From positions 558,001-622,000 of the forward strand of contig JAMLGZ010000001.1 of the NCBI GenBank assembly GCA_023957385.1: a stretch of DNA of 64,000 nucleotides. Reading direction: 5' to 3'. The position numbers were made by a program, and so were the translations under genes. This document shows, piece after piece, positions 35,682 through 38,104 of this stretch. Below the pieces are notes generated by a model that saw nothing but the letters and a program-made list of their open reading frames with translations, had not been told where the DNA came from and did no database searches. Numbering within the stretch: the first letter of the stretch is position 1; every line of letters begins with the position of its first letter. The DNA comes from Brumimicrobium sp. (GTDB lineage Bacteria > Bacteroidota > Bacteroidia > Flavobacteriales_D > Crocinitomicaceae).

Positions 35682-36131
35682 TTGGGAGTAGAAATAGAGC
35701 GAAAATTCCTTGTACATAAGGAAAAATGGGAACAGATTAAACCTAAAGTGGGAAAACAAATCTCACAAGGATATTTAATGAATACACCTGAATTGGTCGT
35801 TCGCATACGTACGAAAGGAGATAAGGGATTTGTCACTATTAAAGGGCATTTAAATACTATTTCTCGGACGGAATATGAGTATGAAATTCCATATAATGAA
35901 GCAATGGAAATGCTCCAACAATATTGTCCAAAAAGGATAGAAAAAACACGATTTGAGATAAGAATGGGAAATCATCTTTGGGAAGTTGATGAATTTGTAC
36001 AACCCCTGACAGGACTTATCTTAGCCGAGATCGAATTACAAGATGAAATGGATCAGTTTGAAATCCCTGACTGGATTAAAGAGGAGGTAACACATTTGCC
36101 AGAATATTACAATGCTAATATGCTAAAATAA
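35682..36131 (+). CDS. CYTH domain protein
   Basis: A 149-residue protein with the N-terminal ExExK signature (GVEIERKFLV) and the basic/acidic tunnel residues of CYTH enzymes (VVRIRTKGDKGFVTIKG, EYEYEIPYNEAM, FEIRMGNHLWEVDEF, LAEIELQDE). Close in shape to YgiF/NE1496-type small proteins acting on triphosphates (tripolyphosphatase-like); substrate unproven. The start is TTG at 35682, 1 base after the gap stop, aligning with the usual Met before GVEIERKF. An alternative TTG at 35658 inside gap would add eight residues not expected in the family. Translation is probably coupled to gap. Confidence 0.9.
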   Translation: MGVEIERKFLVHKEKWEQIKPKVGKQISQGYLMNTPELVVRIRTKGDKGFVTIKGHLNTISRTEYEYEIPYNEAMEMLQQYCPKRIEKTRFEIRMGNHLWEVDEFVQPLTGLILAEIELQDEMDQFEIPDWIKEEVTHLPEYYNANMLK

Positions 36132-36142
36132 TTTATTAGTTT

Positions 36143-36157
36143 ACCCGTTGTGCATTT
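36143..36157 (-). repeat. Short dispersed repeat, copy A
   Basis: ACCCGTTGTGCATTT; its complement AAATGCACAACGGGT matches copy B (36383-36397) at 14 of 15 bases, in opposite orientation. A and B flank the palindromic element between them. Confidence 0.6.
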
Positions 36158-36180
36158 AGCTAAAATGCATGATATCATCT

Positions 36181-36305
36181 TAGACCCCGACACTCTTTCG
36201 TCCGTCGGGGTGACAATACATAGAGAGGGTAAAGCGGTCGGCTTTGCCGACCGATAGTAGCCCCCAACAATTGTCACCCCGAGAACCTTGGTTGCTCGGG
36301 GTCTA
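36181..36305. repeat. Nested palindromic intergenic element
   Basis: 125 bases with perfect 10-bp ends (TAGACCCCGA and its complement). Inside are three hairpins: ACCCCGA/TCGGGGT (36184-36211), CGGTCGGC/GCCGACCG with a TTT loop (36235-36253) and ACCCCGAG/CTCGGGGT (36276-36302). A second perfect pairing, 13 bp, links 36205-36217 with 36270-36282, so the ends can pair either locally or across the element. It is GC-rich in AT-rich surroundings and sits between convergent genes. Could be a REP-like unit or a non-autonomous mobile element. Confidence 0.85.
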
Positions 36306-36312
36306 TTTTTTT
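36276..36312 (+). terminator. Terminator formed by the right hairpin of the element
   Basis: Stem ACCCCGAG / CTCGGGGT, loop of 11 bases, then CTA and seven T. It can end transcripts from gap and the CYTH gene. Confidence 0.65.
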
Positions 36313-36382
36313 AAATAATTTCTATTTTCTTACATCCTCGCAGAGTAAACACAATCCATATATAGTAGAGATTATTTTTTGT

Positions 36383-36403
36383 AAATGCACAATGGGTTAT
36401 TAG
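36383..36403 (+). repeat. Short dispersed repeat, copy B
   Basis: AAATGCACAATGGGTTATTAG; 18 of 21 bases match copy C at 62151-62171. It lies just beyond the stop of the DUF4296 gene. Confidence 0.6.
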
Positions 36404-36407
36404 TTTA

Positions 36408-36767
36408 CTATTGTGTATTCTCCAATCTCACTGCCTCTAGCGTTAAACTATCTTGTATTTTATTATATATATCCAATAGTTTCTCTTGGTGATAAGAATA
36501 ATAATCCATAGAATGTTGATAGCGGATACTATCTATGGCATATTTCTGAAGAATTGTATCCATTACATACGGAAGTTGAGCATACTGGTTTATATTGGTT
36601 TCATTTAATGATTGATAATAAGCCTCTACCACCATCATATCATATAAAATAATACGAAAAGAGTCTTCGGGAATTAAATCCTTAGGGATATCAGTATTAT
36701 CTATCTGGTATGAACAGCCAGCAAAAGAGAATACACTAAGCAAGAAAAATACTATTCTTTTAAGCAT
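36408..36767 (-). CDS. DUF4296 family lipoprotein
   Basis: A 119-residue lipoprotein (signal LSVFSFAGC, Cys18) with a helical body carrying the DUF4296 pattern as I recall it (PEDSFRIILYDMMVVEAYYQ, YAIDSIRYQHSMDYYSYHQE). I set the start at the ATG at 36767, forming TGATG with the pyrC stop. A TTG one codon upstream is the alternative. It follows pyrC and the mannosyltransferase gene in one transcript, a neighbour order I remember from other Flavobacteriales. Function unknown. Confidence 0.82.
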   Translation of the reverse strand: MLKRIVFFLLSVFSFAGCSYQIDNTDIPKDLIPEDSFRIILYDMMVVEAYYQSLNETNINQYAQLPYVMDTILQKYAIDSIRYQHSMDYYSYHQEKLLDIYNKIQDSLTLEAVRLENTQ

Positions 36768-38104
36768 CAATCAAAACGATTAAAAGTGAGACGTCTTCCG
36801 GTAGCTTCTGAAACAATTTTATCTTGGTCATAAACTAAATTTCCATTTACAAAAGTTTTTTCAATCTTATGAGAAAAAGTGGTTCCTTCAAATGGCGACC
36901 AACCACATTTGTAAAGTATATTTTCTTTAGTTACAGTTGTTGTTTGAGTTGGATCAATTAATACCAAATCAGCAAAATAACCTTCTCGAATAAAGCCTCT
37001 ATTTTTTACGCCAAACAAAGTAGCTGGTGCATGAGCAGTTTTTTCGATAATCCTTTCTTTAGAGATTACTCCTTGTAAAGATTTTTCAAAGAGTGCTAAG
37101 AGCGCATGTTGTACTAAAGGTCCGCCTGAAGGTGCTTTAAAATACGATTGTTCTTTTTCTTCTATGGTATGTGGCGCATGATCTGTAGCAATTACATCAA
37201 TACGATTATCTAATACTGCTTTCCAGATGGCCTCTCTATCACTTGCTTTCTTTACCGCAGGATTCCATTTGATATATGTTCCTTTTGCTGCATAATCCTC
37301 TTCTGAAAACCAAAGATGATGTACACAAGCCTCTGCTGTAATTCGTTTTTGAGCAAGTGGAGTTATATTCTCAAATAGAGAAAGTTCCTTTGCTGTAGAA
37401 ATATGTAAAACATGTAAACGAGCTCCGTGCTTTTTAGCTAAGGAAACAGCCAAAGAAGAGGATAAATAGCATGCTTCATCACTTCGAATTTCTGGGTGGT
37501 ACTGAATAGGCACATTCTCTCCGTATTTTTCACGGAATAATTCCATATTTCTACGGATTGTAGCTTCATCTTCACAATGTGTTGCTATAAGCATAGGAAC
37601 TTTACTAAAGATATTATTCAAAGTAGTTGGATTATCAACCAACATATTTCCTGTACTAGAACCCATAAATACTTTTACACCACAAACATCTTTAGGATTA
37701 GTTTTGAGCACTTCCTCAATATTATCATTGGAAGCTCCCATAAAAAAACTATAATTAGCAGCACTAGTTTTTGCAGCAGTTGCATATTTATCTGCTAATA
37801 ATTCCTGAGTTAAGGCCTGTGGTACAGTATTAGGCATTTCCATAAAAGAAGTTACGCCACCTGCCACGGCAGCTCTACTCTCTGTAAAAATTGTGGCTTT
37901 ATGTGTGAGTCCTGGTTCTCTAAAATGAACTTGGTCATCAATACTACCTGGAACTAAATATTTACCTTCACAATTGATTTCTTGAGCAGAAACATCTGCT
38001 ACATGTGAATCTATTTTAGCAATCCTATCTCCGTCAATTAACACATCACCTACAAAGGATTTCCCTTCATTAATAATGGTCGCTTGTTTTAAAACATATT
38101 TCAT
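36767..38104 (-). CDS. pyrC: Dihydroorotase
   Basis: A 445-residue amidohydrolase closing carbamoyl-aspartate to dihydroorotate in pyrimidine synthesis. The fold signatures are present: [20 protein letters not shown] (58-60 read Q-V-H), [24 protein letters not shown] with the bridging Lys region, [16 protein letters not shown] and IATDHAPHT. The first His of the usual H-x-H metal pair is Gln; I recall this in other Bacteroidota dihydroorotases, so it may not mean loss of function. The start is the ATG at 38104, within the ATGA overlap with the upstream stop. An earlier in-frame start would overlap the mannosyltransferase gene further. Confidence 0.94.

Follow-up and report, generated by a model that had tools for sequence, protein, structure and literature searches.

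The palindromic sequence at positions 36143–36397 of the window, by which we mean the whole 64,000-nucleotide stretch of DNA that was analysed, is very probably (we would put it at about 93%) a full-length IS982-type MITE that was moved in trans by an IS982-family transposase, belongs to a family now orphaned in its genome, and carries a cassette of three hairpins inside. This reading is carried by multiple copies, terminal inverted repeats (TIRs) held in common with elements of relatives that encode a transposase of this family, target-site duplications, the absence of such a transposase here, conserved hairpins, and a hairpin loop that inverts as a block. What was an unexplained palindrome becomes a transposon family that can be defined and counted, and whose class of motor is known; the family is new to the literature searched and belongs to a known class.

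The copy in the window occupies the gap between convergent CYTH-like (+) and lipoprotein-like (−) genes, and its parts and surroundings are as follows.

36143–36397: full-length MITE copy, 255 bp, bounded by the outer inverted repeat
36134–36142 (unstranded): left target-site duplication, TATTAGTTT, 9 bp
36133–36143: alternative left duplication, TTATTAGTTTA, with the element end taken at CCC
36143–36158 (+): left TIR, ACCCGTTGTGCATTTA, equal to the ends of IS982-family elements
36159–36181 (+): left subterminal spacer, AT-rich and little conserved (mean identity 81%)
36182–36217 (+): hairpin B, AGACCCCGA-loop-TCGGGGTGACAAT
36235–36253 (+): central hairpin C, CGGTCGGC-TTT-GCCGACCG; the loop is AAA in other copies
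36270–36305 (+): hairpin D, ATTGTCACCCCGAG-loop-CTCGGGGTCTA, inverted relative to B; a 13-bp repeat also pairs D with B
36306–36312 (+): T tract of seven T, 3' of hairpin D
36313–36381 (+): right AT-rich subterminal region
36382–36397 (−): right TIR, TAAATGCACAATGGGT, with one mismatch to the consensus
36398–36406 (unstranded): right target-site duplication, TATTAGTTT
stop at 36131 (+): CYTH-like ORF, its name read from the translation
stop at 36408 (−): small lipoprotein-like ORF, its name read from the translation

All of the symmetries described in the initial annotation exist: the perfect 10-bp inverted ends of a 125-bp unit (36181–36190 and 36296–36305), a perfect 13-bp pairing (36205–36217 with 36270–36282), an outer 15-bp pair (36143–36157 and 36383–36397) that matches at 14 of 15 positions and at 83% over 24 nt, and the central hairpin. 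Its description of the sequence as GC-rich in an AT-rich region is likewise accurate: GC content is 56% for the 125-bp core and 42% for the complete element, against 34% for the whole window. RNA folding of 36143–36403 yields −97.3 kcal/mol, compared with −56.8 ± 5.3 for 200 shuffles (z = −7.6), and is thus far beyond chance. The inner 125-bp unit comprises two inverted GTCA-stem-loop-stem-TCT hairpins flanking a GC hairpin, in which hairpin D, when reverse-complemented, is the same unit as hairpin B with a different loop. This inner unit is present, but the biologically relevant limits of the element are set by the outer repeat together with the target duplication. What moves is the outer unit, 36143–36397, and the 125 bp inside it are cargo.

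With the element ends taken as ACCC...GGGT, both ends are present in 35 copies, and 18 of these are flanked by a clean duplication (score of at least 6), a score reached by 0.5% of mismatched flank pairs; an earlier scan that placed the end at CCC had given 11 of 41 at the same score. The duplications are mostly AT-rich, are 7–9 bp long in 17 of the 20 copies scoring at least 5, and adjoin the outer TIR, not the hairpins. Such flanking duplications are the signature of transposon insertion. Among congeners a clean empty allele was not found: the upstream gene pair is conserved, and the downstream gene was not found next to it.

A non-autonomous transposable unit had been among the initial suggestions, with a single copy in the genome named among the findings that would together speak against it. 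Interior-bearing copies instead occupy ~40 distinct loci of the same genome, on two contigs and both strands (the search gave 51 matches, of which those in excess are self-matches in inverted orientation or second pieces), and the suggestion is borne out by this copy number together with TIRs common to an IS982-family element and target-site duplications. The other copies in the genome are 73–92% identical to the window element; full-length copies measure 255–271 bp, with a mean pairwise divergence of 16%. Searching with the TIR 18-mer at up to three mismatches located 77 sites in the genome, against 2 for the reversed control, and these sites additionally yield shorter, variant and TIR-only elements. 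No ORF of at least 80 aa lies within the element. It therefore shows what defines a MITE, namely a length under ~500 bp without a transposase gene, TIRs, a target duplication and dispersed multiple copies. The whole element had no match in nine congeners or 30 further relatives, and an order-wide search of 399 genomes returned, outside its own genome, only 22–29-bp matches at chance level.

The ends of the element connect it to a transposase family. In a scan of public genomes, the 18-base end was found in many Flavobacteriia, often close to contig ends, as is expected of multicopy ISs. In loci of Galbibacter, Flavivirga and Salegentibacter, exact TIR pairs are separated by 964–969 bp and the ISs are flanked by AT-rich duplications of the target like those of the MITE, and a genome of the same bacterial family (G231) contains a 984-bp IS with exactly the MITE's ends and an intact 301-aa transposase. 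The transposases of Galbibacter and Flavivirga, in which the ORF was read (Salegentibacter contributes end pairs), and that of G231 score 225–235 bits on NF033520 (IS982; cutoff 130). IS982 elements have AC ends and generate direct repeats that vary in length, with 7, 8 and 9 bp among the examples (PMC7335449); compared with the published IS982 end consensus, AC(N)6T(N)5TT, our ends agree at AC, T9 and T15, and have A at position 16 where the consensus has T. The NF033520 search found no match in the element's own genome, an assembly of 99% completeness, and the family is therefore an orphan in it. The congeners gave no match over the cutoff (one reaches 20.9 bits), and the same search returned 21 matches in G261, 8 in G021 and 1 in G231. 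Because the ends are shared with ISs that encode an IS982 transposase elsewhere, and its own genome is without that transposase, we conclude that the element is a non-autonomous IS982-type MITE, orphaned here. Outside the TIRs, no convincing sequence common to any IS982 element was found, so that an origin by simple internal deletion of an IS is no more than a possibility.

We infer that mobilisation occurred in trans; the lack of an autonomous partner in the same genome weighs against this. The elements would have been carried into AT-rich intergenic sites, with 7–9 bp of target duplicated on insertion, by a DDE transposase of the IS982 family encoded by an autonomous IS that had the same 16-bp ends, and this IS would then have been lost from the genome. 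The orphan family is decaying in place, to its present divergence, with hairpins that withstand decay better than the spacers and that now and then flip as a block, probably through template switching during replication at the hairpin. Hairpin D and its T tract could, in addition, exert a one-way effect as a transcription terminator.

An IS982-derived MITE of ~240 bp, MITECca01, has been published from a Bacteroidota genome, that of Cardinium cOegib, alongside ISCca4 of the IS982 family (PMC9769881). As far as the relevant passages of that paper describe it, MITECca01 resembles our element in being gene-less, bounded by IS982 ends, lineage-specific, present in many copies and mostly intergenic; unlike our genome, in which no IS982 transposase was found, Cardinium keeps the parental IS in intact copies (PMC9769881). 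The three-hairpin cassette and the flipping of hairpins are features of the present family, of which those same passages make no mention for MITECca01 (PMC9769881). The ISs of Galbibacter orientalis, Flavivirga jejuensis and G231 share with the MITE the terminal 15–16 bp, an AT-rich target and a duplication of ~8 bp, but encode a transposase of ~292–301 aa and lack the hairpin cassette. Our genome thus presents a case in which the motor is gone and the passengers alone remain.

Similar ends were seen on other small elements. In an uncultured Maribacter sp. (L135:2331–2416), an 86-bp element consists solely of the left end of an IS982-type IS and stops at a ATGCACAAC motif resembling a TIR; in the IS of Galbibacter, this motif and the start of the transposase overlap. 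The 86-bp element looks like a MITE caught at birth. Near-identical 150-bp elements with the same IS982-type ends and a CCCTAAAGGG hairpin interior occur at three loci (L119, L130 and L140) of uncultured Dokdonia sp. isolate 807, and are a different and younger MITE that uses these ends. In G021, the IS982 copies examined (L292 and L295) end in ACCCGTTTAGTGGATTAAA, whereas the MITEs of that genome end in ACCCGTTGTGCATTTAG, so these MITEs may also be without an exact IS982 partner.

Within our family, mean identity to the consensus is 96% for the left TIR and hairpin B, 94% for hairpin D, 92–93% for the right TIR and hairpin C, and 81–86% for the subterminal spacers. The stems, being of higher identity than the spacers, therefore decay more slowly. 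They are mostly invariant, and compensated pairs are few (5 cells over five stems), a pattern of conservation, not covariation. The loop of hairpin C reads TTT in 20 and AAA in 14 of the 36 own-genome copies compared (L009–L045), with TCT and AAG in one copy each; mixed T/A forms were found in 0 of 36, and on a tree of the copies, itself weakly resolved, the loop switches state 12 times or more. Since point mutation would leave intermediates, the alternation of TTT and AAA without them points to repeated inversion of the 19-bp hairpin C as a block. In four copies the loop of hairpin D also looks flipped. The block-wise inversion described here is a bacterial case resembling the small inversions at hairpins that chloroplast genomes are known to show.

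The initial annotation also spoke of a REP/BIME-like unit, in which case a RAYT (Y1 tyrosine transposase) would have spread the paired GTCACCCCGA hairpins as REP units, and the outer repeats would be incidental. As to interior shape the comparison is apt, as the hairpins form an inverted pair about a centre and, like enterobacterial and pseudomonad REP/BIME, are short, intergenic and joined by a linker. As to mobility it is not. The genome does encode a RAYT-like ORF of 282 aa (L050:958–1806, at ~2.55 Mb on contig C1 of G000; the only one found), which scores 57.5 bits on NF047646 (E 1.4e-15), below the cutoff of 80, but this ORF is flanked by an unrelated palindrome, CGTGCGATTCTACGGTATCCCC, with none of hairpins B, C and D nearby, so RAYT-driven spread of the MITE hairpins is not supported. 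A stem variant of the three-hairpin cassette at L176 does lie outside a complete frame; yet 56 of the 61 GTCACCCCGA sites in the fetched loci fall within 300 bp of an IS982-type TIR, making them almost confined to the transposon frame, and it is the outer TIR that the target duplications abut. REP units are GTAG-tagged and RAYT-linked, whereas the MITE has GTCA-footed hairpins inside a DDE-type transposon frame; the GTAG tag is absent from the hairpin feet of the window copy, which read TTGTCA and TCTA. We regard spread by a RAYT as highly improbable, and for the CCCC-type unit the REP/BIME assignment is largely refuted. The low-complexity middle of the RAYT-like ORF and its downstream flank carry a palindrome of their own, CGTGCG[AG]TTCTAC..TATCCCC, one copy of which is in the coding frame. 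It is also unlikely that the sequence is a host-selected structured RNA, or a terminator for the convergent genes, kept here for that function. Its strong folding (z = −7.6) and the greater conservation of hairpins than of spacers would suit such a role, as would hairpin D with its seven T, the sole terminator-like site in 35900–36800; at least four T occur in the next eight bases in 35 of the 38 copies with a recognisable hairpin end, and one-way termination at this site is plausible from its sequence. This signature, however, is present on the + strand only, and the ~40 copies are dispersed over all gap types (9 in convergent, 10 in divergent and 19 in tandem gaps, as judged from simple ORF calling), with no clear preference for convergent genes or 3' ends found; termination would therefore be at most a side effect of insertion. 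Hairpin D points in the direction of the genes in 14 of the 19 tandem-gap copies, a 14:5 ratio that falls short of significance (binomial about 0.06). Rfam 15 gave no family above its gathering score, compensatory changes within the family are few, and the target-site duplications indicate insertion.

Within the preferred reading of an IS982-type MITE, and compatible with it, a refinement to which we would give somewhat less than even odds is that two histories are nested here, that of the MITE frame and that of a hairpin cassette that moves independently in and out of different frames. At L178 in the same genome, the same TIR frame surrounds a three-hairpin cassette with GATTCC/GGAATC stems, to which the cassette at L176 is homologous. 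A GTCAG(C/T)CCTCGATA motif occurs in 16 fetched loci of this genome and, in the loci read, marks a long hairpin that replaces unit B, one example of which folds at −65 kcal/mol. The MITEs of G021, from another genus of the same family, keep the same hairpin order with GATTCC-type stems and central hairpins of their own. Similar GTCA..CGAG palindromes, which the initial annotation had mentioned for other Bacteroidota, were indeed found there: in two Flavobacteriia genomes (G255 and G256, loci L240–L289, reached via CANMLX010000004 and NZ_OMKA01000020), a GTCA[AG]TTCGAGTG hairpin lies 26–38 bases inside IS982-type ends at 20 of 33 and 9 of 27 sites, and other sites have a AACCTGAGTTCG end or a TACGATTTACGATTAAAA / TACGATTTACGATTAAAATTTTCGTATAT frame. 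Such marine flavobacteria, Aquimarina sp. Aq78 and a Flavobacteriaceae genome, hold this hairpin within no fewer than three terminal frames. Unrelated frames thus have the hairpin class in common, through capture, exchange or convergence. Weighing against nested histories, neither a recombination breakpoint nor a cassette-only insertion with an empty site was found, and the different stems could also be explained by repeated divergence of one ancestral interior.

To our knowledge, the GTCA-footed paired hairpins, a REP-like class, have no dedicated transposase. We suggest, quite tentatively, that in Bacteroidota they may be interchangeable cargo in MITEs of several DDE families, in which the plan is kept, stems are rewritten, hairpins flip and the structure itself is retained. 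CGTC-tagged palindromic repeats, which also occur in Bacteroidetes, are likewise without a dedicated transposase, and how REP-like palindromes spread without one is a question left by their description (PMC3733652). Our hairpins and those repeats are alike in that they are palindromes, have (C)GTC at the foot and mostly stand head to head in pairs, and in Aquimarina sp. Aq78 the CGTC tag is present on the GCGTCAATTCGAG hairpins; the window copy has TGTC in place of CGTC, and the comparison with those repeats covers foot and pairing (PMC3733652). The three-hairpin plan, found across genera while stems and frames differ, offers a testable route by which transposase-less REP-like palindromes could spread in Bacteroidota, and the recurrence of the cassette with rewritten stems in different frames is the part most worth following. 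Beside an apparent tRNA at L176:880–1330 (~1.147 Mb on contig C1 of G000), four to five tandem ~50-bp repeats, each containing half of a AGATTCCGTTCGCTTCG hairpin, run into a complete three-hairpin cassette.
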